Position numbers and translations under genes: made by a program. Of a DNA stretch of 64,000 bases, positions 30,940-50,400 are shown one piece after another (position 1 is the stretch's first letter; every line of letters starts with the position of its first letter). This DNA comes from Chitinivorax sp. PXF-14 (GTDB taxonomy: Bacteria; Pseudomonadota; Gammaproteobacteria; Burkholderiales; SCOH01), in contig NZ_JBFNXJ010000008.1 of NCBI RefSeq assembly GCF_040812015.1, positions 1 to 64,000 on the forward strand, written 5' to 3'. The notes beneath the pieces were generated by a model. It saw only the letters and a list, made by a program, of their open reading frames with translations, was not told where the DNA came from and did no database searches.

Positions 30940-30965
30940 CTGCCGTAGAGCAGCAAATACAAAAA

Positions 30966-33420: not shown

Positions 33421-33456
33421 AACAGCGCGCCTACGATCAAGAGCACATTCAATATC

Positions 33457-35403
33457 ATGTTTCAACGCCGAGAAAACGAACCCGACTATGCCTGTCTCAA
33501 GGACAGGCCGAGCAAATCACACAACACCTGGGGCAAGTCGATCGAGACGGTACCCGATGACGACCCTCGCCGGGGCAAAAGCCTCAACATCAATGGCGAT
33601 AACTGGGTCAGCGATAACCCCAACCGCTACAAGCAGCACGGTTTTTACTTCAACGCCGACAACTGCATCGCCTGCCATGCCTGCGAGGCGGCCTGCTCCG
33701 AAAAGAACGACAATCCGGCGCACCATGCCTTCCGCTCGGTCGGCTTCGTCGAGGGCGGCAGCTTTCCGAACATGACGCGGCTCAACATCTCGCTGGCCTG
33801 CAACCATTGCGACGATCCGGCCTGCCTCAAGGGCTGCCCGACACGGGCCTACACCAAATTCGCCGAATACGGTGCCGTGTTGCAGGACCCCAACATCTGC
33901 TTCGGTTGCGGCTACTGCACTTGGGTCTGCCCCTACAACGCGCCGCAGCTCGACCCGCTCAGGGGCGTGGTGAGCAAGTGCAATATGTGCGTGGATCGGC
34001 TTGAGGTGGGGCTCAAACCTGCCTGCGTATCAGCCTGCGTCGGCAAGGCGCTCGACTTCGGCGTGGTCGAAAACGTCCCGGATGGCCGCATCCAGTCCAA
34101 GATAGCGATCCCCGGCTTTCCCGACCCCAACATCACGCACCCCAATGTGCGTTTCCAGCAGGTGCGCAATCTGCCGCGCGACATGCACCGCGTCGACAGC
34201 ATGCCGATCCGCTATCACCGCAACGAAGAAACCAACCATTACCAGCCGATGCTCGACCCCAAGCACGGCTTCGAGCGCGACTGGAACCTGATCAAGCTGC
34301 TGACCTCGCACGAAATCTCGCACGTGGCCTTCACCTTGACGGCACAACTTGCCGCCGGCGCCTTCGTGCTGCTAGCGGCGCTGGGCCCGCTGCTGGCGCC
34401 ACTGCGGGCGCTGCACGGCAGCATGGCGTGGCTGCCGCTGCTGTCCGTCATGTTTGCGCTGCTGATGTACGGCATGCTCAAACTCAACCTGCACCTGGGC
34501 AAGCCTCACCGCTTCTACCGTGGCTACTACGGCCTGCGCTATTCGCCGGTATCCAAGGAGATATTCGGCGTGACCGTGTTCACCGTGGGGCTCAGCGGCT
34601 ACCTGGTATGGGCGCTGGTCAAGACGGCCGGCGCCACCATCGCGGGCTGGCTGGGGCGCGTCATCCCGATCGAGTGGTTCAATCACCCAGCGGTGAACAT
34701 CCTGCAGTGGTGCTGCGTCGCCGTGGGGCTGGCGGGCATCGGCTACGGCGGCTTTTACATGATCCGGCTCTACCGCATCAAGGCCCGCCCCTACTGGAAC
34801 CACTGGCACACCGACGCCAGCTTCGTCGGCTCGGCGCTGTCGCTGGGCGCGCTGCTGCCGCTGGCAATCGCCTGGCCGTTTGGGCTGATGAGCGACGCAC
34901 TGTTGCAGATCATGGCCGCCGTATCGGCCCTGGGCTTGGCGCTGGAAGGCAGCGCCCTGCTGGCGCACGCGCGCGATCTGCGCGATGCCAAGAGCGAAGG
35001 CGCCGCGTCGTTCTACATTCAGACCACCAAGTACGGCTATTCCTACCTGTTGCGCAATGGCTTGCTCGGCGCGGCGCTGTGTATGGCCGTGGGGCTGGCG
35101 CTCATGCCCGAGATGCGATGGTTCCTGCTGCCGCCGCTGTTCGCGCTGGCGCTGTCGCAGTCGGTGATCGGGCGGGCGCTGTTTTTCGCAGCGGTGATCC
35201 CTACCACCATGCCGGGCGCCTTCTTCTGGCGCAACCCAGGCTTTGTCGAGCACGCACGCGAAGTCGGCCTGGCCGACATGCCGCAGGTCGGGGTGGCCTA
35301 TGAGCACCATCATCCGTTCAAGATCGGCGAATTGCTGGATACGATCAGGACCACGACCTGGCGGGAAATGCTCGCGCAGACGAAGCGCGTATTTACCGGG
35401 TGA
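33457..35403 (+). CDS. Fused four-cluster ferredoxin / DmsC-type membrane anchor
   Basis: 648 residues. The N-terminal third is a DmsB/PhsB-like ferredoxin with four cysteine sets: CIACHACEAACSEKN, CNHCDDPACLKGC, CFGCGYCTWVCPYN and CNMCVDRL with CVSACVGKAL. The C-terminal two thirds form a DmsC-like anchor with about eight membrane helices (about 290-630). It would pass electrons between the quinone pool and the molybdoenzyme encoded upstream. B and C subunits are usually separate, so this is a fusion. I chose ATG 33457 (MFQRRENEPDYACLKDRPS); an in-frame TTG at 33394 lies in the repeat element and is unlikely. Confidence 0.88.
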   Translation: MFQRRENEPDYACLKDRPSKSHNTWGKSIETVPDDDPRRGKSLNINGDNWVSDNPNRYKQHGFYFNADNCIACHACEAACSEKNDNPAHHAFRSVGFVEGGSFPNMTRLNISLACNHCDDPACLKGCPTRAYTKFAEYGAVLQDPNICFGCGYCTWVCPYNAPQLDPLRGVVSKCNMCVDRLEVGLKPACVSACVGKALDFGVVENVPDGRIQSKIAIPGFPDPNITHPNVRFQQVRNLPRDMHRVDSMPIRYHRNEETNHYQPMLDPKHGFERDWNLIKLLTSHEISHVAFTLTAQLAAGAFVLLAALGPLLAPLRALHGSMAWLPLLSVMFALLMYGMLKLNLHLGKPHRFYRGYYGLRYSPVSKEIFGVTVFTVGLSGYLVWALVKTAGATIAGWLGRVIPIEWFNHPAVNILQWCCVAVGLAGIGYGGFYMIRLYRIKARPYWNHWHTDASFVGSALSLGALLPLAIAWPFGLMSDALLQIMAAVSALGLALEGSALLAHARDLRDAKSEGAASFYIQTTKYGYSYLLRNGLLGAALCMAVGLALMPEMRWFLLPPLFALALSQSVIGRALFFAAVIPTTMPGAFFWRNPGFVEHAREVGLADMPQVGVAYEHHHPFKIGELLDTIRTTTWREMLAQTKRVFTG

Positions 35404-35473: not shown

Positions 35474-35487
35474 TTGATCGGGATCAA
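35474..35487. promoter_or_regulatory. FNR/ANR box, perfect consensus
   Basis: TTGATCGGGATCAA matches TTGAT-N4-ATCAA fully. It lies 98 bp before the DUF2478 start codon and 26 bp before ModE-like site D. The -10-like TATATT at 35517 is 29 bp away, more than the ideal 22 bp, so the promoter position is uncertain. Confidence 0.75.
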
Positions 35488-35513
35488 CGTATATCCAGAA
35501 CTGTCTGGTGCGA

Positions 35514-35537
35514 CGCTATATTAGATAGTATATTCCG
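35514..35537. promoter_or_regulatory. ModE-like operator D
   Basis: CGCTATAT-N8-ATATTCCG; the left half is consensus-like and the right half agrees at 6 of 8 positions, with the same 24-bp spacing. It overlaps the likely -10 region of the promoter of the DUF2478-to-exbD operon. Confidence 0.65.
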
Positions 35538-35571
35538 CGTCACGACTTGGTCATGACGAGCGAGGATCGAG

Positions 35572-36075
35572 ATGATTGAGCGTCCGGAAATGAAGATCGC
35601 CGCGATTGTCCACCGCGCAGCGCGGCGAAATGCAGATCAGCTGCTTGCGGAATCTGCCATGGCGCTGCGCCGGCACGGTTATCGCGTACGCGGGTTGTTG
35701 CAGACGGATATAGCGCCAAGCGGTGGCATGGGCAAGCGCATGCTGCTCACCGACGTCAGCAATGGCAGGGCCTTCCCGATTTCGCAAGACCTCGGCGTCG
35801 GCTCGGCCGCGTGCTGCGTCGATCCGGGCGGAATTGCCGATGCCAGCGTCGTGCTGCGCGACGCCTTGCATGACAAGGCCGACGTGATCGTCGTCAACCG
35901 CTTTGGCTCGCTCGAAGCGTCAGGGCAAGGCTTGAGCACGGAAATGCTGGCACTGATGAGCGCGGGCATACCGCTCGTTACCGTGGTCGAAGAGCGCTTT
36001 GTCGACGCGTGGCGGTTATTCACTGGCTCGGCGTCGATCGAGCTCGCACCCCGGGCCGGATTGCTGCGTGCCTAG
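35572..36075 (+). CDS. DUF2478 family protein
   Basis: 167 residues of the DUF2478 family, recognised by AAIVHRAARRNADQLLAE, GYRVRGLLQT, CCVDPGGIADASVVL and DVIVVNRFGSLEASGQGLS. The fold looks P-loop/nucleotide-triphosphatase-like, although a clear Walker A is absent. Members are often encoded beside molybdate transport or Mo-enzyme genes, but no function is established. It is the first gene of a run that reaches exbD and sits behind an FNR box and ModE site D. The GAGGATCGAG ribosome binding site supports the start. Confidence 0.85.
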   Translation: MIERPEMKIAAIVHRAARRNADQLLAESAMALRRHGYRVRGLLQTDIAPSGGMGKRMLLTDVSNGRAFPISQDLGVGSAACCVDPGGIADASVVLRDALHDKADVIVVNRFGSLEASGQGLSTEMLALMSAGIPLVTVVEERFVDAWRLFTGSASIELAPRAGLLRA

Positions 36076-36161
36076 CTTGCCAGCGTCGGGCTGCACACGA
36101 CATGGATGGACACGGCTTCAGACGTAGCCGATCCGCAACAGATGCAGGGGAATGAACGGAT

Positions 36162-36956
36162 ATGACCATTGCCGCAATCGATTTTGGCCGCCTCTATCGC
36201 GATCACTTTGCCGCGGCCTCGCATGCGCCCAAGCCGGCGAGCGCCTGGAATTCGCGCGCCAGCGGCATCGGCCTCAAAGACCTGCAGAGCCCCTATGCCG
36301 ACGCGTTCATCGCGCGCATGGATCTGTCGGGGGCAAGTACTCTGCTGGATGTCGGCTGTGGCGCAGGCACGATCTGCCTGCCGCTCGCCAGCAGGCTGCA
36401 GCGGGTCTATGCGCTCGATTACAGCGACGCCATGCTGGGCGTATTGCGGGATCACGCTGCGAGCCTCGCGCTGGGCAACGTCGAGACCCTGCACAAAGCC
36501 TGGGCCGACGATTGGGACGACGTGCCGCCCTGTGACATCGTGGTCGCCTCGCGCTCTACCGTGGTCGAGGACATGGAATCTGCGCTGCGCAAATTGAACG
36601 GCAAGGCCTTGCGCCGCGTCTATCTGACCAACCTGGTCGGCGGCAGCTTCATCGACCCGGCCATACCGGCAATGCTCGGTCGCAAGCAGCCGCCCCTGCC
36701 GGACTACATCTACATCGTGAACATCCTTTACCGCATGGGGGTCCACCCCCGGCTCGATTACATCGAAAGCGACAAGCTGCCGGCCAGCGCCGGCGATTTC
36801 GCGAGCGTGGCCAGGCAGGTGTCGTGGTCACTTGGCGAGTTGTCGGCCGATGAGCTCGACAGGCTGCGCGACTGGCACGCCGGCAGCGCGTCCAGGGTGC
36901 CACCCGCCCCGGCGATGCGCTGGGCCTTCATTTCCTGGGACACGACGCCAGGCTAG
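36162..36956 (+). CDS. Class I SAM-dependent methyltransferase (first)
   Basis: 264 residues with the SAM-binding motif I TLLDVGCGAGTICLPLASRL (about 66-85), motif II ALDYSDAMLGVLRDHA and a post-motif CDIVVASRSTVVEDM. The C-terminal part is not of a family I can name. It is followed by the radical SAM gene (71 bp) and precedes the transporter genes, so a small-molecule methylation step in making a metal ligand is the likely role; the substrate is unknown. An AGGGGAA ribosome binding site precedes the ATG. Confidence 0.8.
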   Translation: MTIAAIDFGRLYRDHFAAASHAPKPASAWNSRASGIGLKDLQSPYADAFIARMDLSGASTLLDVGCGAGTICLPLASRLQRVYALDYSDAMLGVLRDHAASLALGNVETLHKAWADDWDDVPPCDIVVASRSTVVEDMESALRKLNGKALRRVYLTNLVGGSFIDPAIPAMLGRKQPPLPDYIYIVNILYRMGVHPRLDYIESDKLPASAGDFASVARQVSWSLGELSADELDRLRDWHAGSASRVPPAPAMRWAFISWDTTPG

Positions 36957-36992
36957 GCACTTCTCCATCTATCCGAGCATTTTTTTGAATGC

Positions 36993-37016
36993 CGCTATAT
37001 ACGAAACAACACACCG
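36993..37016. promoter_or_regulatory. ModE-like operator E (half-site)
   Basis: CGCTATAT-N8-ACACACCG: a good left half and a weak right half (5 of 8). It ends directly before the GAGGAG ribosome binding site of the radical SAM gene. It could be an internal control point or chance. Confidence 0.35.
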
Positions 37017-37027
37017 AGGAGTGATTC

Positions 37028-38098
37028 ATGCAACCAGTCGTCGACACCCTCGCCGCAACACCGGTGCAGCGAGATCAAATCCACCTGCCAGCGCATTTCG
37101 ATAAACAGGATGTGCTGGAACTCTATCGCCGATCGGCTGATCCGGCGTTCGCCAGTGAGCTCTTCCGGACGGCAAGCCAGTTGCGCGATAGCCATCTCGG
37201 CCAGCTCCCCTGGTGGTCTGCCGGCATCTCTGCCATCACGCCGTGTAAAGTCGAGCCGCTGTGCACCTACTGCACGTTCTTCACCCATCGGGCGGCGGCA
37301 ACGAGCGACATCGTCGCGGCGGCCAAAGCCATCGTCGACATGGGCATCCGCCACCTTCACCTGTCCGGCGGTACGCGGGTGGTGGCCGGCGACGACCCCG
37401 CATCGGGATTCGACGAACGGCTGATCGAGATCGTCGCGGCCATACAGGCCGAGCTGGAAGTGGAGATCGAGGTCAACGTCGGGCCATCCCTGACGCGCGA
37501 CGGCGTGCGCACCCTGAAAGCGCTGGGCGTGGCCGCCATCACCAGCTCGCTGGAGATGCTGAATCCGGCCGTATTTGCGCGCTTCAAGCCCGGCGACAGC
37601 CTGAGCGGCCGCATCCGCCTGATGGAAATCTGCGAGGAAGAAGGCATGCCCATCCGCTCGATGATGCTGGTCGGGCTGGAAGATACCGACGAAGACCGGA
37701 TCGACCACCTGTTGTTCCTGCGCCGTTTCTCGATGCTGCGCCACCTGCGCCTGTCGCGCTACATGCCGTTTCCCGGTGCTTCCGCCGGGGGCGTGCGCTG
37801 CTCGCCGTGGCCGATCGCCAGGCTGACGGCGATTGCCCGGCTGATGTTCCCGTCCATCGATCTGGGCCTCGCCGCCGGCAACAGCCCGGATGACATCGCG
37901 CTGTGGTGGCTTGCCGGCGGCGGCAACCAGGTGCTCGGCGCCAGCGCCTCGATGAAGGACCCCCGCAGCAAGCAGGGTAGCGAAGCACGCTCCATCTCGG
38001 TGGGAGAGCGCATCGTTGTCCACGACAACATGCGCCAGATCACTCGTTACTTGGGCGAGCTTGGCTTGACGCCGACATTCACACCCGTAAACAACTGA
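37028..38098 (+). CDS. Radical SAM enzyme of the HmdB/BioB-like type
   Basis: 356 residues. The cluster-binding motif is CKVEPLCTYC (Cys73, Cys79, Cys82), CX5CX2C instead of the usual CX3CX2C; this spacing is known from HmdB (HcgA), which builds the FeGP cofactor of [Fe]-hydrogenase. The rest follows a BioB-like barrel: HLHLSGGTRVV, EVEIEVNVGPSLTRDGV, SLEMLNPAVFARFKPGDSL (SAM-contact region) and RSMMLVGLEDTDEDRI. No [Fe]-hydrogenase gene is present. It lies between a methyltransferase and a TonB receptor gene, so synthesis of a small heterocyclic metal ligand is inferred. A GAGGAG ribosome binding site supports the start. Confidence 0.85.
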   Translation: MQPVVDTLAATPVQRDQIHLPAHFDKQDVLELYRRSADPAFASELFRTASQLRDSHLGQLPWWSAGISAITPCKVEPLCTYCTFFTHRAAATSDIVAAAKAIVDMGIRHLHLSGGTRVVAGDDPASGFDERLIEIVAAIQAELEVEIEVNVGPSLTRDGVRTLKALGVAAITSSLEMLNPAVFARFKPGDSLSGRIRLMEICEEEGMPIRSMMLVGLEDTDEDRIDHLLFLRRFSMLRHLRLSRYMPFPGASAGGVRCSPWPIARLTAIARLMFPSIDLGLAAGNSPDDIALWWLAGGGNQVLGASASMKDPRSKQGSEARSISVGERIVVHDNMRQITRYLGELGLTPTFTPVNN

Positions 38099-38114
38099 CA
38101 AACAAGGGAATCTG

Positions 38115-40337
38115 ATGCGCAGTTCACATCAACCAACAGCTCTCGCGGTAGCCATCGCCGCCATCTATGCCATGACGCCGGGGCTCGGCTGGGCTGCCGA
38201 CGCCGTGTTGCCGGAAGTCACCGTCAATGGCGCGCCGTCCGACGGCAAAGTGTTCACCTCCGACCCGCAGCCGACACCCAAGAGCAGCATCGGCAAGGCC
38301 GGCCTGACTCTGTTTGGCGGCCCGGCCCAGACCAGCCTCTATGCGCCGATGAATCAGCTGCCCTCGACCATCGTCGAAAGCCCCGATCCGTATGGTCTGA
38401 GCTTGACGCGGAACATCAACATCCGTGGCAAGGGCGATTTTCACGTCACCCGCAACGTCGAAGGCCTGCCACTGTCCGGGATCGTCGGCGGCGCCGATCT
38501 GTTTGACCTGGAAAACGTCGAGCAGCTCGAGGTCTATCGTGGCGGCATCGCGGCAAACCAGGGCTTGGGCGTGTCCAACGCAACCGGTGTGGTCAATCAG
38601 CAATTGCTCGCCCCGCGCAACCGTTTCGGCGTCTTGGGCAAGCAGGCCGTCGGCTCGTACGACTTCCGCCGCACCTTTGTACGCCTGGACTCGGGCACGC
38701 TCGCCAGCAGCGGCACCCGCGCCTTCCTGTCAGCCTCCAACAGCGCCAGCGACAAATGGAAAGGCGGCGGTGACACGATGCGCAACAACGCCATGCTGGG
38801 CATCAGCCAGCAGCTGGGCGAGCGCGTCCAGGTGGACCTCGACATGGTCTACAACAAGTTCAAGGGGAACACCTATCGTTCCTTGAGCTATGCCCAGCTG
38901 CAGTCGCTGAGCGACAACTACAAGTATGACTACAACACCTCGCTGACGGGCAACGCCGCCGCCGACGTCAACTATTACGATTTCAACCGTGCCCAGTATG
39001 AAAACTACGCGGCACTGGCCAATATCGACGTCAAATTGTCGGACTCGCAACATCTCCTGCTGAAGCCCTACTACTGGAAAGACAACGGGATCTCGTATTC
39101 CGCCAGCGGATCGACCGTGCAGATCTGGCATCAGCAGAACGACAACGTCGGCAGCGTGCTCGAATACCAGGGGCGCTATGGCGTGGGCACGGAGCTCATC
39201 GCGGGCTACTGGTTCCAGGCGATGCAGCCGCCCCCGCCGCCGACAGACCAGATGAAATACACGGTCAATGCCAATGGTGGCCTGACCTACGCAGGCTGGG
39301 CAACGCTGGCCAAGATCGATCGCTTCAAATTCAGCAGCCCTTACGTCCAGGCGACCCAGAACATCGGCCAGACGATCGTCAGCGGTGGGCTGCGCTATAT
39401 GGATCTCGGCGCGCCGCAGATGCGTTACTACAAGACCGCCGGGCTGCCCGACGTCTCGTATGACCAGATCTGGGGGTACAACCCGACGCTGGATGCCAAT
39501 GCCGCCGTCGCGGCAAAACATCATCGGGCGCTGCTGCCCAATATTGGGGTGCGCCAGGAAATCAGCTCGGCATGGAGCGCCAGCGCGTCCTATAGCCGCA
39601 AGTTCGGTCGCCCGGACTGGGGGCCGCAAGCCAGCAACTACATCAGCAATGAAGCTGCGTTTGTTGCCAAGGGTGTGACGCTGCAATCGCTGGTTGATGG
39701 GGTCAAGCCCGAGCTGTCGGATCAGTTCGACATCAGCGTGCCCTACAGGAATGGCGGGCTGACCGTCGTGCCGACGCTGTTCCTGGCGAAAAACCAGAAT
39801 CGCCAGGTGATGGTGGTGGACCCGGCGCTGGGCGGCCTATCCTATTACCGCTCGACCGCGAAGACCACCGGCTACGGCGTCGAGCTGGAAGGCGGGCTCG
39901 ATCTCGGCAGCACCTGGTCGATTTTCGGATCGGGAACACTGGCTTCCGAAACCTACGATCAGGACACGCCGACACTGGCTGGCGGCGCGACGATGGGAAC
40001 CAAGGGCAAGCAGATTCCGAACGCCCCGAAGCTCATGCTCAAGGGCGGCTTCACCTATCGCTGGCAGGACCTCAGCGTGTCGCCGCTCATGCGCTACGTG
40101 GGGTATCGCTATGGCGACTCGACGCAGACCCAGAAGGTGGGCAGCTATTCCGTGTTCGACCTGAACGCCGGTTACGGCTTCAGCAAGGCGGTCCGGCTCG
40201 ACCTGACGGTAGCGAACCTGTTCGACAGGAAATACATCTCGGAGATCTCGACCAACGACTTCAACCTGAATGGCGCAACGGCGTACTATGCCGGCGCACC
40301 GAGAACGGTTGCCGCAACAATCAGCGCGCAGTACTGA
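38115..40337 (+). CDS. TonB-dependent outer-membrane receptor
   Basis: 740 residues with a signal peptide (cleaved about residue 28, GLGWA-ADA), a TonB-box-like LPEVTVNG just after it, a plug domain (about 60-200; RNINIRGKGDFHVTRNVEGL, LEVYRGGIAANQG) and a 22-strand-type barrel ending in an aromatic residue (ISAQY). The ligand cannot be read from sequence. Position 16 bp after the radical SAM gene and before an ABC importer, with TonB-ExbBD in the same run, shows a complete uptake route for a complexed metal. Confidence 0.92.
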   Translation: MRSSHQPTALAVAIAAIYAMTPGLGWAADAVLPEVTVNGAPSDGKVFTSDPQPTPKSSIGKAGLTLFGGPAQTSLYAPMNQLPSTIVESPDPYGLSLTRNINIRGKGDFHVTRNVEGLPLSGIVGGADLFDLENVEQLEVYRGGIAANQGLGVSNATGVVNQQLLAPRNRFGVLGKQAVGSYDFRRTFVRLDSGTLASSGTRAFLSASNSASDKWKGGGDTMRNNAMLGISQQLGERVQVDLDMVYNKFKGNTYRSLSYAQLQSLSDNYKYDYNTSLTGNAAADVNYYDFNRAQYENYAALANIDVKLSDSQHLLLKPYYWKDNGISYSASGSTVQIWHQQNDNVGSVLEYQGRYGVGTELIAGYWFQAMQPPPPPTDQMKYTVNANGGLTYAGWATLAKIDRFKFSSPYVQATQNIGQTIVSGGLRYMDLGAPQMRYYKTAGLPDVSYDQIWGYNPTLDANAAVAAKHHRALLPNIGVRQEISSAWSASASYSRKFGRPDWGPQASNYISNEAAFVAKGVTLQSLVDGVKPELSDQFDISVPYRNGGLTVVPTLFLAKNQNRQVMVVDPALGGLSYYRSTAKTTGYGVELEGGLDLGSTWSIFGSGTLASETYDQDTPTLAGGATMGTKGKQIPNAPKLMLKGGFTYRWQDLSVSPLMRYVGYRYGDSTQTQKVGSYSVFDLNAGYGFSKAVRLDLTVANLFDRKYISEISTNDFNLNGATAYYAGAPRTVAATISAQY

Positions 40338-40347
40338 GGCGGCCGTC

Positions 40348-41412
40348 ATGCTTCGAGAACGCGCGATGGCGACACTTGTCCCGCCGGATGCAGGCTTGCT
40401 GAGGCAGCGGCTCCGCCTCCGCCGCATGCTGCCCTTGCTGGTGGCGGTGCTTGCCATCGCCGTGGTGTCGATGGGGCTCGGCCACTATCCGCTCGCGCCA
40501 GGCGCCGTGCTCGAGGTTCTCTGGTCGGCCTTGACGGGCACCCCGTCGACGCAGCCGCCGGCAGCAGGCAACGTGCTGCTGGCGGTGCGCCTGCCGCGGG
40601 TGCTGGCTGCGCTGCTGGTCGGCGCGAGCCTGGCGGCGGCGGGTGCGGCCTACCAGACCCTGTTTCGCAATCCGCTGGCCTCGCCTGCCCTCCTCGGCGT
40701 GTCTGCCGGGGCGGGCTTCGGTGCGTCGCTGGCGATGCTGCTGCATGGCAGCGCCCTGCTCGTGCAAGGCTCTGCCTTTGCTGGCGGCATCGCCGCCGTG
40801 GCCGCTGCACTGCTCATCGCGAGCCGGCTGGGGCGCGGCTCGGCCCTGGTGCTGATCCTGTCCGGCCTGATCATTTCTGCGCTGTTCCAGGCGCTGACCT
40901 CCTCGCTGAAATACGTCGCCGATCCGCTCGATACCTTGCCGGCGATCGTGTTCTGGCTGCTCGGTGGCCTGGGGCGGGTGTCCATGGCCGATCTGGCGTG
41001 GGCCGCACCGTTCTCGCTGGCCGGGATAGCCATCATGCTGCTGCTGCGTTGGCCGACGCAGGTGCTCGAAGCCGGCGACGAAGAGGCCCGCACGCTGGGG
41101 ATCAGGGTCCAGCCGGTGCGGCTGCTGATGATCGCCGCGGCAACGCTGACCACGGCGGCGGCAGTCAGCATCTCCGGCGTCGTTGGCTGGGTGGGGCTGC
41201 TGGTTCCGCATCTGGCGCGGCTCGTGGTTGGCCCTGCCTACACCGTATTGTTGCCGGCATCGATCCTGACCGGCGCCGGCTACCTGCTGCTGGTGGATGA
41301 TCTCTGCCGTACCGCATTCCGCTTGGAGCTACCGCTCGGCATCGCCACCGCGGTGCTTGGCGCCCCCGTGTTCGTGGCCGTGCTCCTTCGGGCGAGGCGC
41401 CAATGGTCCTGA
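40348..41412 (+). CDS. FecCD/BtuC-type ABC importer permease
   Basis: 354 residues with about ten membrane helices. Family signatures are VLLAVRLPRVLAALLVGASL, AAAGAAYQTLFRNPLASPAL, LGVSAGAGFGASLAML and GVVGWVGLLVPHLARLVVGP. Type II importers carry iron-siderophores, cobalamin or haem, and in Haemophilus influenzae (MolB) molybdate/tungstate. The start at 40348 follows GAGG; a second in-frame ATG lies 18 bp further in. It overlaps the ATPase gene by 10 bp. Confidence 0.93.
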   Translation: MLRERAMATLVPPDAGLLRQRLRLRRMLPLLVAVLAIAVVSMGLGHYPLAPGAVLEVLWSALTGTPSTQPPAAGNVLLAVRLPRVLAALLVGASLAAAGAAYQTLFRNPLASPALLGVSAGAGFGASLAMLLHGSALLVQGSAFAGGIAAVAAALLIASRLGRGSALVLILSGLIISALFQALTSSLKYVADPLDTLPAIVFWLLGGLGRVSMADLAWAAPFSLAGIAIMLLLRWPTQVLEAGDEEARTLGIRVQPVRLLMIAAATLTTAAAVSISGVVGWVGLLVPHLARLVVGPAYTVLLPASILTGAGYLLLVDDLCRTAFRLELPLGIATAVLGAPVFVAVLLRARRQWS

Positions 41413-42167
41413 AAGTAAACGGGCTGACATTCCGCCATGGGCCAGGCCAGGCCGTGCTGCTCGACGGCATCGACCTGGCCGTTGAAGCGGGCCAGGTGCT
41501 GTGTTTGCTCGGGCCCAACGGCTCAGGCAAGACCACCTTGCTGCGCTGCATTATCGGCGGGCTCGCGGCGGAGCGCGGCGACATCCGCATCGACGGCGAA
41601 TCGGACATGGCGCCGCGCCTGCTCGCGCGCAGGCTGGCCTATGTGCCGCAAGCCAGCGGCGACAGCGGCCTGTCTCTGCTCGATACGGTGCTCATGGGGC
41701 GCACCCCGCACCTGCCGGCGCTGGCATTGCCGGGGCGGCACGATATGTCGCTGGCGCTGCACGCCCTGGAGCGTGTCGGCATTGCCCATCTGGCCGCGCG
41801 GCCATTCAACCGTGTCAGCGGCGGCGAGCGCCAGCTGGCCCTGATCGCCCGCGCCCTGGCACAGGCCCCGCGCCTGCTGGTGATGGATGAGCCGACCGCC
41901 AGCCTCGATCTCGGCAATCAGGTGCGCGTGCTGCGCACCATCCGGCATCTGGCCTCGGAGGGCATGGCGGTGCTGGTGAGCTCGCATCAGCCCGAGCACG
42001 CCTTGCTGCTCGATGCGCATGTCGCCGCGCTCCGCGCTGGGCGGATCGTGGCGGCTGGCACGGCGCGCGAGGTGCTGCAGCCGGATACGCTGACCCGCCT
42101 CTACGGCACCCCGATAGACATCGTCGCCCGGCACGGCGTGACGGTGGCTTGTGTTCCACGGCTCTGA
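41403..42167 (+). CDS. ABC importer ATP-binding protein
   Basis: 254 residues with all ABC ATPase motifs: Walker A LLGPNGSGKTTLLRC, Q-loop YVPQASG, signature FNRVSGGERQLALIARAL, Walker B LLVMDEPTASLD, and switch His in LVSSHQPEHAL. It is FecE/BtuD/MolC-like and partners the overlapping permease gene. Confidence 0.95.
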   Translation: MVLKVNGLTFRHGPGQAVLLDGIDLAVEAGQVLCLLGPNGSGKTTLLRCIIGGLAAERGDIRIDGESDMAPRLLARRLAYVPQASGDSGLSLLDTVLMGRTPHLPALALPGRHDMSLALHALERVGIAHLAARPFNRVSGGERQLALIARALAQAPRLLVMDEPTASLDLGNQVRVLRTIRHLASEGMAVLVSSHQPEHALLLDAHVAALRAGRIVAAGTAREVLQPDTLTRLYGTPIDIVARHGVTVACVPRL

Positions 42168-42185
42168 CACGACAGGGATCTCATC

Positions 42186-43211
42186 TTGCTGAAGCAACTC
42201 GTTGTACTGATCATCGTCCTGCTCTGTGCCCAGGCACAGGCGGCGCCGATGCGAACCTTGCAGGACATGGCGGGCGACCGCGTCGAGGTCCCCGTGACGG
42301 TGCGGCGGGTGGCCACCATCGGCGCGGTGCCGGTGCTCAACAGCCTGGTGTTCGCCGTGGGCATGAACAACACGCTGATCAACGGGCTGCCGGACTTCGC
42401 CAGAAAACCGCGCTGGTCGTATCAGGCTGTATTTGCGCCGCAAACCGCCAGCCTGCCCTCGATGCAGAACAGCGACCGCACGGCGAACGTGGAGGCGCTG
42501 CTGCAGGCGGCGCCGGACGCCGTCCTGACCATGGACCGCGCCGGTGCGGAAAGCCTGCGCCGGATGGGCATTCCGGCCATCTACATCGCCTGGCGCCAGC
42601 CGCAGGACGTGAAAGCCGCCGTGCAGTTGCTGGGCTCGCTGTTTGACCAGCCGCAGGCGGCACAACGCTACGCGAGCTACTTCGACGCGACCCTGGCACG
42701 CGTCAGCCGGACCTTGCAGCGAGCCAATCCAGCGCGGCCGCGCGTGCTCTATTTCAGCCCGGCAACGCTCACCCAGCCGCATCTCGTCGCCGAATGGTGG
42801 ATACGCGCCGCCGGCGGAAGCAGCGTGACCGACGACGGCCGCACCATCGAGTCGCGCAGCTTCACGCTGGAACAGATGCTGGCCTGGGATCCGGACATCC
42901 TCATCGTCTCCGGCCATGAAGATGCCGAGGCGATACGCCGCGAACCGCGCTTCGCCGGCATGCGGGCCGTGCGCGCCGGCCGGATCCTGGTCGCGCCCTG
43001 TGCGGCCCATACCTGGGGCAACCGTACCGCCGAACAGCCGCTGACTGTCCTGTGGGCGGCAAAGCATTTCCATCCAGCGCTGTTTGCCGACCTGAATCTG
43101 GAAACGGAAACCCGACGCTTCTATCGCGAGATATTCGGCGTCACCCTGTCCGCCGCCCAGATCAACGAAATACTGGCGGGAGGACCGCGCGGTGCTCCCG
43201 CCCTTCAGTAG
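42186..43211 (+). CDS. Periplasmic metal-complex-binding protein (class III)
   Basis: 341 residues with a signal peptide (MLKQLVVLIIVLLCAQAQA) and the two-lobed BtuF/FhuD/MolA-like fold: RTLQDMAGDRVEVPVTVRRV, ANVEALLQAAPDAVLTMD, then an interlobe helix and LEQMLAWDPDILIVSGHED. The single early Cys lacks a good lipobox, so it is probably soluble. Translation starts at TTG 42186 with GGGAT upstream. It completes the importer encoded just before. Confidence 0.88.
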   Translation: MLKQLVVLIIVLLCAQAQAAPMRTLQDMAGDRVEVPVTVRRVATIGAVPVLNSLVFAVGMNNTLINGLPDFARKPRWSYQAVFAPQTASLPSMQNSDRTANVEALLQAAPDAVLTMDRAGAESLRRMGIPAIYIAWRQPQDVKAAVQLLGSLFDQPQAAQRYASYFDATLARVSRTLQRANPARPRVLYFSPATLTQPHLVAEWWIRAAGGSSVTDDGRTIESRSFTLEQMLAWDPDILIVSGHEDAEAIRREPRFAGMRAVRAGRILVAPCAAHTWGNRTAEQPLTVLWAAKHFHPALFADLNLETETRRFYREIFGVTLSAAQINEILAGGPRGAPALQ

Positions 43212-43244
43212 TGTTTCTTCTTAATGTCGAGAGAGAGGTTGTGT

Positions 43245-44282
43245 ATGGGTTGCTCGAAAGAAAACATCGCACTCGTCGACGCCAGCATGCCGACGTCGGT
43301 TGCCTGGCTGCATGACATCGTTGACGGGTTCAAGGCGTTCCAGGTATTGCGGGCCGGGTTTCAGGCCGGCTTGTTCGACTGGCTGGAACAGCACGGCCCG
43401 GCAAGCAAGGCGGATATCGCCAGTGCCCTGGGCCTGCGCGGCGCGCACCTCGGCGCCTTGCTGCAGACGATGGAGGAGCTGGGCCTGCTGGATTCGAGCG
43501 AAGGCGGCTACTCGCTGGCCGCCGGTATGAGTGCCGTATTGTGCCAAAGCAGCCCATGGTGCCAGGCCGGCGTGCTTGAAGCGCTGCTTAGGCCTGCCAG
43601 CGGCTGGCACGATATGGGGCGGTTCCTGTCCGAAACATGGCAGGCCGCACCGGCGCCGGCCGCGCCCTCGCTCCTGCTGCACCCCTTGTTCGCGGAAGCC
43701 CAGCGGCTGGTTGTGCGCTATGGCCAGCGCCAGCTGGAACGCAGCAGCGACGCGCCGATGCGCACCTTGCTGTGCTTCGACGGCAGCGACGGCCTGTTCG
43801 CGGTCATGCTTTGCCAGCGCTTTCCTGATCTCGACGTCACCATCGTCGTGCAGCCGGAAGCCATCGCCAGCACCGAGGCCGCTGTGGCGACTTGCGGCTT
43901 GGCCGATCGTTGCCGGGTTCAGGCCGGCACGCCGCTCGAATCGCCTGTCGACGGGCAATATGACCAGATCGTGCTGTTCCATAGCCTCTACGCGGTGCGC
44001 AAATCGGTAGCCGCCGCATTGGCCGCCGTCGCGGGCCGGCTCGCGCCCGGCGGCGAGCTGTGCAGCGCCCACTGGTTCTGCCAGGAGGCCTGCAAGGCGG
44101 CACCGGGTGGTTTGCGCGATCTGGACAAGGCCGTGATCACCGATAGCCATCCACTCTGCGGCGTCGAACGTTTCTGCCCGCGCCTGGAAGAAGCGGGCCT
44201 GGCGCAGGCCGAACAAGCCGACCTGGCCGGCGCATTCGGCACTACCAAGCTGCATTTCGCGCGCCGCCCGGCCAGCGCGTGA
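43245..44282 (+). CDS. SAM-dependent methyltransferase with winged-helix N-domain (second)
   Basis: 345 residues (start at 43245, 8 bp after GAGAGAGG; an ATG at 43224 lacks a ribosome binding site). The N-terminal domain resembles O-methyltransferase dimerisation/winged-helix domains: GFKAFQVLRAGFQAGLFDWL, GPASKADIASALGLRGAHLG. The C-terminal Rossmann part has LLCFDGSDGLFAVMLCQRFP and a DQIVLFHSLYAV segment. Such enzymes methylate hydroxyl groups of small molecules. Early cysteines (MGCSKEN) are present. The place between transporter genes and DUF364 suggests action on the same ligand. Confidence 0.8.
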   Translation: MGCSKENIALVDASMPTSVAWLHDIVDGFKAFQVLRAGFQAGLFDWLEQHGPASKADIASALGLRGAHLGALLQTMEELGLLDSSEGGYSLAAGMSAVLCQSSPWCQAGVLEALLRPASGWHDMGRFLSETWQAAPAPAAPSLLLHPLFAEAQRLVVRYGQRQLERSSDAPMRTLLCFDGSDGLFAVMLCQRFPDLDVTIVVQPEAIASTEAAVATCGLADRCRVQAGTPLESPVDGQYDQIVLFHSLYAVRKSVAAALAAVAGRLAPGGELCSAHWFCQEACKAAPGGLRDLDKAVITDSHPLCGVERFCPRLEEAGLAQAEQADLAGAFGTTKLHFARRPASA

Positions 44283-44292
44283 CAGGGTCGCC

Positions 44293-45156
44293 ATGCCAAT
44301 TGCCCCCTGGCCTGACAGGCATATCCCAACCACCTTGCTGGCGGAGCTGCACGCGGCGGTGCTGGCGCGGCTCGGCAGCGATGCCCAGTCGCTGCGTATT
44401 GCCCGCGCCGTGCTCGGCATCTTCTTTACCGGCGTCAAGCTCGACAACGGCGCCGGGGGCCTGTGCGCCACGCCGGTCAAGAGCGTGCCGGAGGCCGTGT
44501 GCTGCCCCAGCTCGGCCAAAGCCATGCCGACGCCCGGCAAGATTGCCGGGCGCCTGGCAACGCAGGTGCTCGACGATCTTTACCGGCCGCAGGATTTGCG
44601 CCGGGCGCTGGCGATCGCCACGCTCAATGCCTTGGCGGAGACGCTATGGATGCGGGACGGCCCGCCGGCGGGCATCGATGTCCGCGAGGGCGACGCCTTC
44701 AGCGCTCTTTCGCTCCAGCCGGGGCAGCGGGTGGCCTTGGTCGGCGCCTTTCCACCCTATATGCGCGAGCTTCGCCGGCGCGGCCAGCCATTCAACGTGC
44801 TGGAGCTCGATCCGGCGACCTTGAAGCCCGAAGAGCTGCCCTACTATATTCCCGGCGAACGGGCGCCCGAGGTCATCCCTCATGCCGATGTTTTCATCAC
44901 TACCGGCACGACCTTGATCAACGGTAGCCTGGATGGCCTGTTGCGGCTGTTGTCGCCGGGCGCCCAGGCGGCTGTCATCGGGCCGACGGCAACACTGATC
45001 GCGCATCCCTACGCGGCCAGAGGCGTCACTGTCGTCGGTGGCACGCGCGTCGTTGCGGCCGACGACCTGCTCGATCTGCTGGCGGAAGGCGGCTCCGGCT
45101 ATCACTTCTTCGGCAAGACGGTCGAGCGCGTCACGCTCTGCCTGACTACGCCATGA
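44293..45156 (+). CDS. DUF4213/DUF364 protein, putative metal-chelation protein
   Basis: 287 residues. The N-terminal part (about 10-110) matches the DUF4213 enolase-like fold: GIFFTGVKLDNGAGGLCATP, then a Cys pair in EAVCCPSSAKAM. The C-terminal DUF364 Rossmann-like part has GQRVALVGAFPPYMREL, NVLELDP, ADVFITTGTTLINGSLDGLL and VIGPTATLIAHPYAARG. The family is annotated as a possible heavy-metal chelation domain and often accompanies FecCD-type importers; its function is not established. It could release, store or modify the imported metal complex. Its stop codon overlaps the tonB ATG. Confidence 0.85.
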   Translation: MPIAPWPDRHIPTTLLAELHAAVLARLGSDAQSLRIARAVLGIFFTGVKLDNGAGGLCATPVKSVPEAVCCPSSAKAMPTPGKIAGRLATQVLDDLYRPQDLRRALAIATLNALAETLWMRDGPPAGIDVREGDAFSALSLQPGQRVALVGAFPPYMRELRRRGQPFNVLELDPATLKPEELPYYIPGERAPEVIPHADVFITTGTTLINGSLDGLLRLLSPGAQAAVIGPTATLIAHPYAARGVTVVGGTRVVAADDLLDLLAEGGSGYHFFGKTVERVTLCLTTP

Positions 45157-45887
45157 TGCCGCTGCCGGCGGAAGAATGCTTCCTGGGCAGCGCCGTGCCA
45201 CGGCCGGCGCGAGAGGAACAGCGGCTGCGACCGCGCCAAGCCGTGCAGTGGCTCGCCGTCGCCATGGCCCATGCCGCCGTGGCGGGCATGATCTGGCAAA
45301 CACCGGCCGCACCGCAGTCCGCGCGCGAATCGGTGATCCAGGCAACGCTGATTTCGCCCAGGCCGCCAGCGCCGCCACAAGTACAACCGCCGCTGCCTGT
45401 CCCCGTCGCGCCCAGGCCCGAGGCGAAGCCCGCCACGGCGAAACCGGCGGTGCAACAACGCACCGTCGAACGTCCGGCCGAGTCATCGCTGCTCGCCGCG
45501 CAGGAGATGCCGGCAGGCGCGAGCGCCATACCGGCGCCAGCGGCACCGGCTGTTGCCAGTGCGCCCAGGGAACCTGCCGCGAGTGTGCCAGACACGCCGC
45601 CCGCCCAGCCGACCCCGCCCGTGTTCGACGCAGACTATCTCGACAACCCGGCGCCACCCTATCCGCAGGCATCGCGCCGCTTCGGCGAGAAGGGGGTCGT
45701 GCTGCTGCGCGTGCTGGTATCGCCCGCGGGGCGGGCCGAGCGCGTCGAGATCAAGCAGTCTTCCGGGTTCGTGCGGCTCGACTCCGCCGCCAGCGGCGCA
45801 GTCGCCGGCTGGCGTTTCGTCCCCGCCAGGCGCGGTGAACAGAGCGTCGCCGCCTGGGTATTGGTTCCGATTTCCTTCGTTTTGTAA
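45153..45887 (+). CDS. tonB: TonB energy-transducing protein
   Basis: 244 residues. A single membrane helix near residues 30-50 is followed by a Pro/Ala-rich periplasm-spanning segment with KPA repeats (about 65-155) and the TonB C-terminal domain (PPYPQASRRFGEKGVVLLRV, GFVRLDSAASGAVAGWRFVP). It couples the proton-motive force to the receptor encoded in the same run. The ATG overlaps the DUF364 stop codon. Confidence 0.93.
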   Translation: MMPLPAEECFLGSAVPRPAREEQRLRPRQAVQWLAVAMAHAAVAGMIWQTPAAPQSARESVIQATLISPRPPAPPQVQPPLPVPVAPRPEAKPATAKPAVQQRTVERPAESSLLAAQEMPAGASAIPAPAAPAVASAPREPAASVPDTPPAQPTPPVFDADYLDNPAPPYPQASRRFGEKGVVLLRVLVSPAGRAERVEIKQSSGFVRLDSAASGAVAGWRFVPARRGEQSVAAWVLVPISFVL

Positions 45888-45900
45888 TGTGAGTTACACC

Positions 45901-46626
45901 ATGGATGATTCTGCTCTCGGCTTTGCCCACTTTCTTGCCCAATCGGACAATGTGGCACGCTTCATTTTGCTCACGATGCTGCTGGCCTCGGTGGCCACCT
46001 GGGGCATCCTCATCGATAGCCTGGTCGGCCATTGGCTGCAGCGCCGGCGCGGCACGCTCTTTCTGGCGCGATTCCGCAACGCGCGCAACCTGCTGGAAGT
46101 GGCCGATGGATTGAGCACGGCTGCCGGTAGCCCCTACGCTAGGCTCACCCGCATCGCGCTCGATTCGGCCAGCCATTACGGCGTGCACGATGCCAGCCAC
46201 CTCGATGCCGCCGGCGGCCTGACGGAATTCCTCACGCGCACCTTGCGGCAGGGAATCGAGGACGAAAACATGCGCTTCGAACGTGGCCTCACCCTGCTCG
46301 CCTCGATCGGCTCGACCGCACCGTTCGTCGGCCTGTTCGGTACGGTATGGGGCATCTACCACGCCTTGCTGGCGATCGGCCAATCCGGGCAGGGTACGCT
46401 GGACAAGGTGGCCGGCCCGGTCGGCGAAGCGCTGATCATGACCGCGATCGGCCTGGCCGTCGCCATCCCCTCGGTGCTCGGATACAACGCGCTGACCCGC
46501 AAGAACCGCCTGGCGCTCAGCCGCCTCGACGCCTTCGGGCACGATCTGCTGACCATGGTGGTGACCGGCGCGCCACTGTTGCGGAGCAAGCACATGAATG
46601 CACGCAACGATACGGGAGCGGCATGA
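45901..46626 (+). CDS. exbB: Biopolymer transport protein ExbB
   Basis: 241 residues with three membrane helices. ExbB/TolQ signatures are RFERGLTLLASIGSTAPFVG, LFGTVWGIYHALLAIG and VGEALIMTAIGLAVAIPSVL. It forms the proton channel with ExbD. It starts 13 bp after tonB, and its TGA overlaps the exbD ATG. Confidence 0.95.
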   Translation: MDDSALGFAHFLAQSDNVARFILLTMLLASVATWGILIDSLVGHWLQRRRGTLFLARFRNARNLLEVADGLSTAAGSPYARLTRIALDSASHYGVHDASHLDAAGGLTEFLTRTLRQGIEDENMRFERGLTLLASIGSTAPFVGLFGTVWGIYHALLAIGQSGQGTLDKVAGPVGEALIMTAIGLAVAIPSVLGYNALTRKNRLALSRLDAFGHDLLTMVVTGAPLLRSKHMNARNDTGAA

Positions 46627-47045
46627 TGGCATTCGGGACACTCAATTCCGGCGCGGGCGGCGGGCGCCCCGTCGCCGAGATCAACCTGATCCCCCTGGTT
46701 GACGTCATGCTGGTTCTACTTGTGGTGTTCATCGTCACCGCGCCATTGCTGACTCACGCCGTCAAGCTGGAATTGCCGCGCGCCAGCAGCCGGCCCAACA
46801 CCTCGTCGGCCAAGCACATCGAGATCGCCTTGCAGGCGAACGGCACCCTGTACTGGAACGGCACCGCGATCACGCGCGCGGAGCTGGAGCAGCGTGCCGC
46901 ACAGCTCGCCCTACAGGCGCCGGATACCGACATCCACCTGCAAGGCGATGCCAGCGTGCCCTACGGCGATATGGCAAAGACCCTCTCCGCTCTTGCGCGA
47001 CATGGCTTGTCGCGGGTCGGCTTTGTCACCGATCCGTCCAACTGA
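46623..47045 (+). CDS. exbD: Biopolymer transport protein ExbD
   Basis: 140 residues: a short cytoplasmic N-terminus, one membrane helix with the essential aspartate in INLIPLVDVMLVLLVVFIVT, and a periplasmic domain. Last gene of the compact run that starts with the DUF2478 gene. The start codon overlaps the exbB stop codon. Confidence 0.94.
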   Translation: MMAFGTLNSGAGGGRPVAEINLIPLVDVMLVLLVVFIVTAPLLTHAVKLELPRASSRPNTSSAKHIEIALQANGTLYWNGTAITRAELEQRAAQLALQAPDTDIHLQGDASVPYGDMAKTLSALARHGLSRVGFVTDPSN

Positions 47046-47424
47046 GCTGCGCTCGGGCTGCAGCGACACGCAGCCTGCCTGACAAGGGCTGGCCCGATGG
47101 CCCGGCCCGCCACGCGTGCATGGCTGTTCCCTTTGTGCTTGCGCCATGGCGGCGTGGCAAGCCATCGCCAGCCTTCACTCCGCCGCGGATTGACCACGCG
47201 CAGCGTGTTGCACCCCACCTGCCCCGCAGCACGGTGGCCGGGTGCGCCCCGGCGCTGTTTCAACGATTGTCTGCCCGCCTGGCAGCCCCATCTCGGTGAA
47301 TGGCGGGCCCAGCTTGCCTCTTGCCTGTGCATGACGGCATGGCGGGCTGGCTGATACCCCCTGAAGCGGCCGCATGGCGCCGTAAATGACGCCGGTGGGC
47401 GTACATGGCCCGCTTTTTGCTCTT
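47046..47424. other. Intergenic region, no gene seen
   Basis: The spacer between exbD and the nitrate reductase gene is GC-rich with short open frames on both strands but no ribosome binding sites or family matches. No T-run terminator for the exbD operon is visible. The only clear signal is ModE-like site F at its right end. Confidence 0.5.
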
Positions 47425-47448
47425 CGTTATATATGTTTGGATATAGCG
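47425..47448. promoter_or_regulatory. ModE-like operator F (near perfect)
   Basis: CGTTATAT-N8-ATATAGCG, with symmetry reaching 10 bp per arm (TTCGTTATAT / ATATAGCGAA, one mismatch). It lies 18 bp before the nitrate reductase ATG. No FNR box accompanies it, in keeping with an assimilatory enzyme. Confidence 0.85.
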
Positions 47449-47466
47449 AATGTGGGGGTGGTGCAG

Positions 47467-50400
47467 ATGAACGCCAACAAGACCGTCAAGTCCGTCTGCC
47501 CCTATTGCGGGGTTGGCTGCGGCATTGTCATGGAAGTTGCCGGCCCGCGCGTGATCAAGGTGTCGGGCGACAAGCAGCACCCGACCAATTTCGGCCGGCT
47601 GTGCACCAAGGGTAATACCTGCATCCAGGCGATCGCCGAATCGGGCCGGCTCGAGCACGCCTATCTGCGCGGCAAGCGCCAGCAGGAGCCCGCGCGGGTC
47701 GCCATGGAGGTGGCCATCAAGGAGACGGCGCGGCGCCTCAAGGCCATTGTCGGCACCCATGGGCCGGATGCGGTGGCGCTCTACGTGTCGGGGCAGATGT
47801 CGCTCGAGGCGCAGTATCTCGCCAACAAGCTGGCCAAGGGCTTCATCGGCACCAACAATATCGAGTCCAACTCACGCCTCTGCATGGCGAGCGCCGGCAG
47901 CGGCTACAAGCTATCTCTGGGCTCGGACGGGCCGCCGGGCTCGTACCAGGACTTCGACCGAGCGGACCTGTTCTTCGTCATCGGCGCCAACATGGCGGAC
48001 TGCCATCCGATCCTGTTCCTGCGCTTGATGGACCGGGTCAAGGCCGGCGCGAAACTGATCGTCGTCGATCCGCGCCGCAACGCGACGGCAGACAAGGCCG
48101 GGCTCTATCTGCAGATCAAGCCGGGCACCGATCTGGCGCTGCTCAACGGCCTGTTGCACCTGCTGGTGAAGAACGGCCACACCGATGCGGATTTCATTGC
48201 CGAATTCACGCAAGGCTGGGAGGCGATGCCGGCCTTCCTCGACGATTACGCGCCGCACAAGGTGGCCGAGATCACCGGCATCCCCGAAGCCGATATCCGC
48301 CAGGCGGCGGACTGGATCGGGGCCGCCCGCGAGTGGATGAGCTGCTGGACCATGGGGCTCAACCAGAGCACGCATGGCACCTGGAACACCAATGCGATCT
48401 GCAACCTGCATCTCGCTACCGGCGCCATCTGTCGCCCCGGCAGCGGGCCCTTCTCGCTCACCGGCCAGCCCAACGCGATGGGCGGGCGCGAGATGGGCTA
48501 TATGGGGCCGGGCCTGCCGGGCCAGCGCTCGGTGCTGGTGGACAAGGAACGCGCCTTTGTCGAGGACTTGTGGGGCATTGCCCCCGGCACGCTGCGCCCC
48601 GAGTCGGGCGGCGGCACCATAGCCATGTTCGAGGACATGCAGGCCGGCAGGATCAAGGCGTGCTGGATCATCTGCACCAACCCGGTGGCCACCGTACCCA
48701 ATCGCAAGAACGTCATCGCCGGCCTCGAGGCCGCCGAGCTGGTGATCACGCAGGATGCCTTTCTCGATACCGAGACCAACCGCTTTGCGGACATCCTGCT
48801 GCCCGGCGCGTTATGGGCCGAGGCAGAGGGCGTCATGATCAACTCGGAACGCAATATGACGCTGATGCAGCAAGCCGTCGAGCCGCCGGGCGAGGCGCTG
48901 GCCGACTGGCAGATCATCGCCCGCGTGGCCTGCGAGATGGGCTATGCGCATGCCTTTACTTACGGCAGCGCGGCAGATGTGTTCGACGAGCTCAAGCTGG
49001 CCTGGAACCCCAAGACCGGCTACGACATCCGCGGGGCAAGCCATGAGCGGCTGCGCCAGTCCCCGCTGCAGTGGCCCTGCGCGCCCGGCCCGGCGCATGA
49101 CCGCAACCCGCTCCGTTATCTCAACGACGGCATCAGCCAGACCCTCAGAACCCGCGAAGACGGCAGCCAGCCGCTCATTGCCTTCGCCACCGAGAGCGGC
49201 AAGGCGGCCTTCCTGCCCAGGCCCCACATGCCGCCAGCCGAGATGCCGGACGCCGACTTCCCCTTTGTGCTCAACACCGGCCGGCTGCAGCACCAGTGGC
49301 ACACGATGACCAAGACCGGCAAGGTGCCGACACTGAACAAGCTCAACCCGTGGCCGTTCGTCGAGATCCACCCCGACGATGCGGCCGTGCTCGGCATCCG
49401 CGACAAGGATCGCGTGGAAATCCGCTCGCGGCGCGGCCGTGCGCTGCTGCCCGCGCAGCTCACCGACCGCGTACGGCCCGGCAACTGTTTTGCGCCATTT
49501 CACTGGAACGACGTATTCGGGGACGATCTGGCGATCAACGCCGTCACCGCTGACGCCGTCGACCCGATCTCGCTGCAACCCGAATTCAAGTTCTGTGCCG
49601 TCGCCTTGCTGCGCGCCGCAGAAACCCCCATCCAACAGTCGGCGACTGGTGCGGACGACGGCGTCCCGCCACGCGCCAGCGCAGGCCCGTCGCCCCATGC
49701 CAACAAGGAACTCACCATGAAGCAGATCGATGCGCTGGCCAGCCTGCTGGACCTCGATGCCGCGCCCGCCCTGGCGTTGGCGCCGCATGAACAACGCTAT
49801 ATGCAAGGCTATCTGAGCGCGCTTCGTACCGAGGCTGCGCGCGAGGCCGGCGGCGTGCCGGTATTGCCGGCCACGGCGCCATTCGAGGCGGGCAAGCGCC
49901 TGATGCTCGACGGCATGCTGGCCGGGCTGTTTGCCCGCACCTGGCTGGCCGATGACGGGCTCCAGGCCCCGGCCCTGCCGGAGCCGGCCAGTGACGCCAG
50001 CGCGGCGGCGAAACCGCGGGTCGCCATCGTGTGGGCCTCGCAGACAGGCAATGCCGAAACCCACGCTGGCCAGTGTGGCCAGCGGCTCAAGGCCGAGGGC
50101 TACGATGTCACGCTGGCCAGCATGGACGCTGTCCATGCGTCCGACCTGGCCACGTTCAGCCACCTGCTGCTGTTGACCAGCACCTTCGGTGATGGCGATC
50201 CACCCGACAACGGCAGCGCCTTGTGGGCTGCCCTGCAGGCCGATGGCGCCCCACGGTTCGCGCAGACGCGGTATTCGGTGCTGGCGTTGGGTGACTCGAA
50301 CTATGACCAGTTCTGCGGCTTCGGCCGCAAGCTCGATGCGCGGCTGGCGCACCTCGGCGCCCAGCGGCTGTGCCCCAGGGCCGACTGCGAGCCGGACTAC

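Follow-up and report, generated by a model that had tools for sequence, protein, structure and literature searches.

Within a 64,000-nt stretch of the genome of Chitinivorax sp. PXF-14 (G000), hereafter called the window, positions 35572-47045 are occupied by a compact cluster of twelve genes, which we propose to form a molybdenum-starvation operon scavenging chelated molybdenum, with a radical S-adenosylmethionine (SAM) enzyme making or tailoring the ligand. We assign a probability of roughly 0.55 to this reading. Its basis is the gene content of the cluster, operators of the ModE and FNR type in front of it, the co-inheritance of the radical SAM gene with the transporter genes and the linkage of related genes to Mo-regulated and Mo-transport genes in other genomes. 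All twelve genes lie on the + strand with short gaps or overlaps between neighbours, as read from the list of open reading frames, and were assigned to families by Pfam and NCBIfam profiles. The cluster and its operators, in positions of the whole window, are composed as follows:

35474-35487: perfect FNR box TTGATCGGGATCAA (10/10, P<0.001)
35512-35539: ModE-like operator of the cluster (palindrome 14/20; weight-matrix P 0.001)
35572-36075, + strand: DUF2478 protein, NTPase_1-like (PF10649, E 4e-48)
36162-36956, + strand: SAM methyltransferase 1 (PF13649)
36991-37018: weaker second ModE-like site, 9 bp ahead of the start codon of the radical SAM gene (P 0.006-0.01)
37028-38098, + strand: HmdB/HcgA-like radical SAM enzyme (rSAM) with a CX5CX2C motif (profile matches and motif)
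38115-40337, + strand: TonB-dependent outer-membrane receptor (TBDT; PF00593; 66-69% identity in relatives)
40348-41412, + strand: FecCD-type permease, start uncertain (PF01032, E 1e-77)
41403-42167, + strand: ATP-binding cassette (ABC) ATPase (PF00005)
42186-43211, + strand: FecB-type periplasmic binding protein (SBP; Peripla_BP_2; closest ligand-tested match MolA, HI_1472)
43224-44282, + strand: methyltransferase 2 with dimerisation domain, SibL-like (profile match)
44293-45156, + strand: DUF4213-DUF364 protein (PF04016, E 4e-40)
45153-45887, + strand: TonB (PF03544)
45901-46626, + strand: ExbB (PF01618)
46623-47045, + strand: ExbD (PF02472)

Operators and uptake route

Predicted ModE and FNR operators precede the cluster, and its control by these regulators is strongly supported by the independent genomes described below. 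ModE palindromes were scanned with the pattern ATCGNTATATA-N6-TATATANCGAT (maximum score 20), with 20 shuffled windows as control. The six top-scoring positions in the 64 kb are 29416 (19), 47423 (17), 29206 (17), 30914 (16), 36991 (14) and 35512 (14); as the maxima of the shuffled windows reach 12-14, the latter two sites, which belong to the cluster, are marginal if judged by the palindrome count. Nine sites, none of them in the cluster, served to train a weight matrix, which ranks site 35512 fifth in the 64 kb behind four training sites, with a local shuffle P of 0.001, and assigns P 0.01 to site 36991. The best Fur box matches before the operon (10/18 and 9/18; P 0.52 and 0.76) are no better than shuffles, and scans for NikR, CRP and NtrC boxes upstream of the cluster revealed nothing above shuffles. 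Neither a cobalamin nor a molybdenum cofactor riboswitch is present in the window, where Rfam finds only tRNAs, and the two related loci L002 and L003 described below are likewise devoid of a cobalamin riboswitch. These data bear out an earlier note on this DNA, which had described the operators as ModE- and FNR-like and not Fur-like. Its further descriptions also stand: all genes of the claimed compact same-strand run were found, molybdoenzymes flank the cluster on both sides (31027-35403 and 47469-51657), with a separate ModE site for either of them (30914 and 47423), and the profiles of the cluster proteins contain no known siderophore-synthesis family. The separate SBP gene at 42186 is an addition to the earlier gene list.

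According to the Pfam profiles, TBDT, TonB-ExbB-ExbD and an ABC importer are all encoded within the cluster, and permease, ATPase and SBP correspond to the complete component set of a MolBCA-type importer. Mo-responsive control combined with a complete predicted uptake route across the outer and inner membranes is well supported by this context. A search of the PDB with a profile of three SBPs returned three structural-genomics proteins followed by HI_1472 (MolA; E 6.7e-15), which ranks above YiuA and CeuE and is the top-scoring PDB protein with a tested ligand. Foldseek placed MolA fifth (E 1e-14; 16% identity in the structural alignment) when queried with an SBP structure model, whose predicted local distance difference test (pLDDT) value of 63 restricted its use to ranking. 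Both comparisons support, but cannot prove, the binding of an oxyanion or a Mo complex to the SBP.

The radical SAM enzyme and its relatives

The candidates for ligand synthesis in the cluster are rSAM and the two methyltransferases, a classical siderophore synthesis family not being among them. rSAM contains the motif C73-X5-C79-X2-C82 (CKVEPLCTYC), which is kept as CX5CX2C in all three orthologues (CKVEPLCTYC, CELEPLCTYC and CEIEPSCTYC). Profile searches assign it to the BioB/HydE/PylB/HmdB type with HmdB (TIGR03957; E 2e-33) as best match, the 115.9 bits being far below the equivalog cut-off of 320.9. HcgA, reported as unique among rSAM enzymes for the CX5CX2C motif, makes a 2-pyridinol from small cell metabolites, and the product is methylated by HcgC (PMC10100467). 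The cluster enzyme shares motif and profile similarity with HcgA/HmdB of [Fe]-hydrogenase cofactor synthesis but differs from them by its score far under the HmdB cut-off, an extra conserved C-terminal region of ~75 residues and its location in a bacterial transport operon. By analogy, the presence of an HcgA-type rSAM next to two methyltransferases suggests a pyridinol-type chelator, and rSAM may plausibly make a ligand for export. An AlphaFold model of rSAM calculated from three sequences was too poor (pLDDT 47) and was not used.

A pattern-based scan of 84,980 species genomes, performed with a single query sequence and sensitive to close relatives only, revealed two rSAM orthologues, and no more were detected in 399 genomes of the same order, 399 of the same phylum, plasmids and viral contigs. 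One of them (L002) resides in a metagenome-assembled genome (MAG) labelled Janthinobacterium, whose nitrogenase genes are of the nif rather than the anf type as far as pairwise identities show, the other (L003) in a Desulfocapsaceae MAG and hence in a different phylum from the window. The gene order rSAM-TBDT-FecCD-ATPase-SBP, with rSAM as the first core gene, is kept in both loci at 62-74% identity. Because the identities across phyla are about as high as for the pair of window and L002, and no second rSAM copy was found in 93 genomes from the family of L003, horizontal transfer of the unit is suggested; the gene set appears to be both rare and horizontally spread. ModE sites precede the rSAM operon in all three genomes, and those of L002 and L003 are assigned P<0.0005 by the weight matrix.

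The rSAM gene of L003 is transcribed divergently from a gene for a single-domain ModE (TIGR00637, E 1e-25, slightly under cut-off), and the region between the two contains the best-scoring ModE site of this locus (9728, P<0.0005). The core genes are followed by genes for TonB, a NifA/AnfA-type activator, anfH, NifI-like genes, anfD, anfG, anfK and anfO; for anfD, G, K and O the Fe-only cut-offs are exceeded, those of the V-type models (VNFD, VnfG and VnfK) not being reached. In Azotobacter vinelandii, ModE-type regulators mediate the repression of anfA by Mo (PMC9542535), and in conjunction with this finding the linkage of modE and anf genes in L003 makes a role in Mo starvation the natural reading. 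The activator gene lies on the same strand as tonB, 55 bp downstream of it, and a gap of 150 bp precedes tonB. As the weight matrix found no comparable ModE site ahead of the activator gene itself, the latter may share a transcript with the uptake genes. The region 9728-18900 of L003 is a possible single ModE-controlled operon reaching from rSAM through the AnfA-type activator, which would unite metal uptake and control of the Fe-only nitrogenase in one transcript.

Links to molybdate transport genes are also found outside the rSAM core. Contig C4 of G000 encodes ModE-ModA-ModB-ModC and a di-Mop protein; ModE is thereby encoded twice in this genome, full-length on C4 and as a single domain at 28409 of the window. 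The same mod locus (L035 8567-11185) contains a second TBDT gene, preceded by a gene whose product is similar to the N-terminal portion of methyltransferase 2, and a strong ModE site (L035 11158) directly precedes this pair. A homologue of the second TBDT recurs in the mod array of G996, a genome of the same class as the window, whose taxonomic order is represented in our search by G996 alone. This array comprises ModA (49%), ModB (61%), ModC (51%), a TauE-like gene (read from the sequence) and a luciferase-like monooxygenase and, on the same strand as modABC, FecCD (45-48%), ATPase (45-46%), three TBDTs and three FecB-type SBPs. One TBDT is 36% identical to that of the cluster and one 34% to that of the C4 mod locus; one of the SBPs matches at 38%, with one TGA inside the matched stretch in the genome search, yet a 400-aa frame in the open reading frame list covers that stretch. 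A di-Mop gene follows the array on the opposite strand, and a ModE-like site lies ahead of modA. G996 harbours neither an rSAM orthologue (best E 6e-6) nor a DUF364 gene. The luciferase-like monooxygenase has a counterpart after the SBP gene of L002 (32% identity); such a gene stands beside uptake genes in two of four loci (L002 7841-8956; L065 13239-14219), and its product could act on the ligand.

The genome that contains L002 (G766) has its sole DUF364 gene (77% identity) and a DUF2478 gene (46%) in a mod locus (L037) with ModE, Mop and ModA, for which reason the window copies look like mod-locus genes that joined the uptake core. In the same mod region another TBDT (L037 4110-6251) adjoins a ModA-like SBP_bac_11 protein (3243-4091). 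DUF364 homologues in the order of the window are mostly ~28% identical, and those of their neighbourhoods that were retrieved contain no cluster or mod homologues except two weak partial matches (a ModA-like and a DmsB-type frame), with a single weak ModE-like site among them. According to the DUF364 structure paper, genes for the transport of Mo, W and V occur as neighbours of the family, which was proposed to work with metal chelators (PMC2954201); a literature link between DUF2478 and molybdenum was not found in open-access publications. The link to molybdenum and ModE drawn in the earlier note is strongly supported by modE and Fe-only nitrogenase genes in one genome, modABC and Mop in another and ModE sites before both full relatives, and the clusters of the relatives are not consistently adjacent to iron, nickel or cobalt genes. 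The co-occurrence of rSAM, DUF364 and TonB/FecCD genes with ModE sites, which it proposed as a check, holds for rSAM, TBDT and FecCD, found together with such sites in three genomes, whereas DUF364 does not travel with rSAM.

Proposed pathway and competing explanations

On these grounds we propose the following scenario. Expression of the cluster would occur under a shortage of Mo (ModE off) together with low oxygen (FNR on). The HmdB/HcgA-like rSAM would then make or tailor a small ligand, possibly of the pyridinol type, which the two methyltransferases may decorate. After export, the ligand complexed with Mo, which the genomic context well supports as the presumable cargo rather than W, V or Fe, would enter via the TBDT energized by the TonB-ExbB-ExbD system of the cluster, be handed over to the FecB-type SBP and be imported by FecCD/ATPase. 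Intracellular handling of the complex or the metal, for delivery to Mo cofactor synthesis, is probably the task of DUF364 and DUF2478, and the delivered Mo would feed the flanking nitrate-reductase-type enzymes. More tentatively, the ligand might be a dedicated Mo metallophore, a pyridinol-type chelator built by the HcgA-like rSAM. It would then be the first known metallophore of such origin, and its genes would have crossed phylum boundaries in one piece with those for receptor and importer.

Several observations weigh against the scavenging operon with rSAM as ligand maker. Both ModE sites of the cluster are weaker than those of the neighbouring genes, the full core is carried by three genomes in total, and genome G765 has no DUF364 gene at all. 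The mod-linked importer of G996 indicates that the importer can work without rSAM, and the presence of ModABC in both G000 and G996 implies that the cluster is not their sole Mo route. The claim of ligand synthesis in the earlier note holds in so far as rSAM is kept with the transporter in three genomes; synthesis itself can only be surmised, as methyltransferases and DUF364 are outside the conserved core and the look for a ligand exporter, confined to the window cluster and not extended to the whole genome, revealed none. A major facilitator superfamily gene is located near the L002 cluster.

The main counter-reading to rSAM as ligand maker, which we regard as unlikely, retains Mo uptake and has rSAM open or modify an imported complex of foreign-made ligand to free the metal, like the anaerobic heme-opening rSAM enzymes after TonB/ABC heme import. 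It would accommodate the co-inheritance of rSAM with the importer, the lack of any additional synthesis gene linked to rSAM in L003, the absence of an exporter from the window cluster and the position of methyltransferases and DUF364 outside the conserved core. However, known members of the BioB/HydE/PylB/HmdB type build small molecules, and the heme-opening enzymes belong to a different branch. An iron siderophore system under Mo control, in which Mo starvation raises the iron demand via the Fe-only nitrogenase, is a distinctly less probable explanation. The best profile of the TBDT is indeed TonB-siderophore, and TonB siderophore receptor operons of A. vinelandii are activated without Mo and V (PMC9542535), but a genome search found no nitrogenase-family protein in G000, where the ModE sites are kept all the same, a Fur-like box is missing, and the homologous transporter set of G996 directly follows modABC. 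We consider tungsten or vanadium as cargo equally improbable: MolA also binds tungstate (PMC4031551) and DUF364 genes are also found in the vicinity of genes for W and V transport (PMC2954201), but the nitrogenase linked in L003 is Fe-only, the flanking enzymes are nitrate-reductase-like and ModABC and Mop are neighbours. We hardly expect that an organic cofactor, for instance a corrinoid, is imported or an FeGP-like cofactor synthesized inside the cell, in either case without metal scavenging. FecCD and ATPase do score highest against BtuC/F420-0 transporter models and rSAM resembles a cofactor enzyme, but all of these scores stay below cut-off, window, L002 and L003 lack a cobalamin riboswitch, and independent genomes show linkage to Mo genes.

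Known systems and neighbouring genes

Among the closest known systems, the molybdate/tungstate importer MolBCA of Haemophilus influenzae (HI1470-1472) shares the type II permease/ATPase and the FecB-type SBP with the cluster, which adds TBDT, TonB-ExbBD, rSAM and ModE/FNR operators and whose SBP is 16% identical to MolA. What MolBCA transports, with low affinity, is free molybdate (PMC4031551). The ModABC/ModE/Mop molybdate system offers the same regulator type and genomic company but belongs to another transporter family and in its classical form lacks an outer-membrane step. The Mo and V ligands of A. vinelandii are catechol siderophores, and to our knowledge known molybdophores are iron siderophores in a second role. 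Already known are the induction of VnfA1-controlled TonB receptor and ABC operons of A. vinelandii without Mo and V (PMC9542535) and, for molybdophores as siderophores, the uptake of Mo- and V-complexing compounds under limitation (PMC3440940); in contrast, the cluster has rSAM instead of catechol, non-ribosomal peptide synthetase (NRPS) or NRPS-independent siderophore genes and its control appears to be directly ModE/FNR-based. The lanthanophore methylolanthanin and its lut cluster follow a similar logic of metal-specific ligand, TBDT and ABC transporter for a metal other than iron (PMC11317620) but have neither this metal nor the ligand chemistry nor the genes in common with the cluster. Open-access publications on molybdophores, mostly at the level of titles and abstract openings, name none that is built by a radical SAM enzyme.

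In many waters and soils, Mo is limiting for the fixation of nitrogen and the use of nitrate. A ModE-controlled gene set that brings along receptor, energy proteins and rSAM would be a purpose-built Mo route. DUF364, so far with a guessed role in metal chelation, would gain a concrete pathway, and the cluster points to new natural metal-ligand chemistry testable with one enzyme.

The flanks of the cluster contain the following features:

28409-28822, + strand: single-domain ModE (DNA-binding domain only), ~7 kb upstream of the cluster (TIGR00637 above cut-off; HTH_1 only)
29206-29233: further ModE palindrome ahead of the DUF2325 gene (17/20)
29416-29443: near-perfect ModE palindrome ahead of the DUF2325 gene (19/20, best in 64 kb)
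30914-30941: ModE site ahead of the upstream molybdoenzyme (16/20)
31027-33231, + strand: molybdopterin oxidoreductase, NasA/Fdh-alpha-like (NCBIfam)
33394-35403, + strand: fused DmsB-type Fe-S/DmsC-type membrane subunit (NCBIfam for the N-terminal half; membrane half read from sequence)
47423-47450: ModE site ahead of the nitrate-reductase-like gene (17/20)
47469-51657, + strand: NasA-type molybdoenzyme fused in one frame to a CysJ-like flavoprotein (NCBIfam; start read from sequence)

The single-domain ModE is 53% identical to the full-length ModE of the same genome over 98 aa. In addition to its two strong ModE palindromes, the DUF2325 gene (29459; region 29186-30784) is preceded by a perfect FNR box TTGATTTTTATCAA. 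Just downstream of the single-domain ModE gene, at 28840-29060, lies a frame-disrupted short coding remnant, which we take to resemble the start of an IS256-type transposase.

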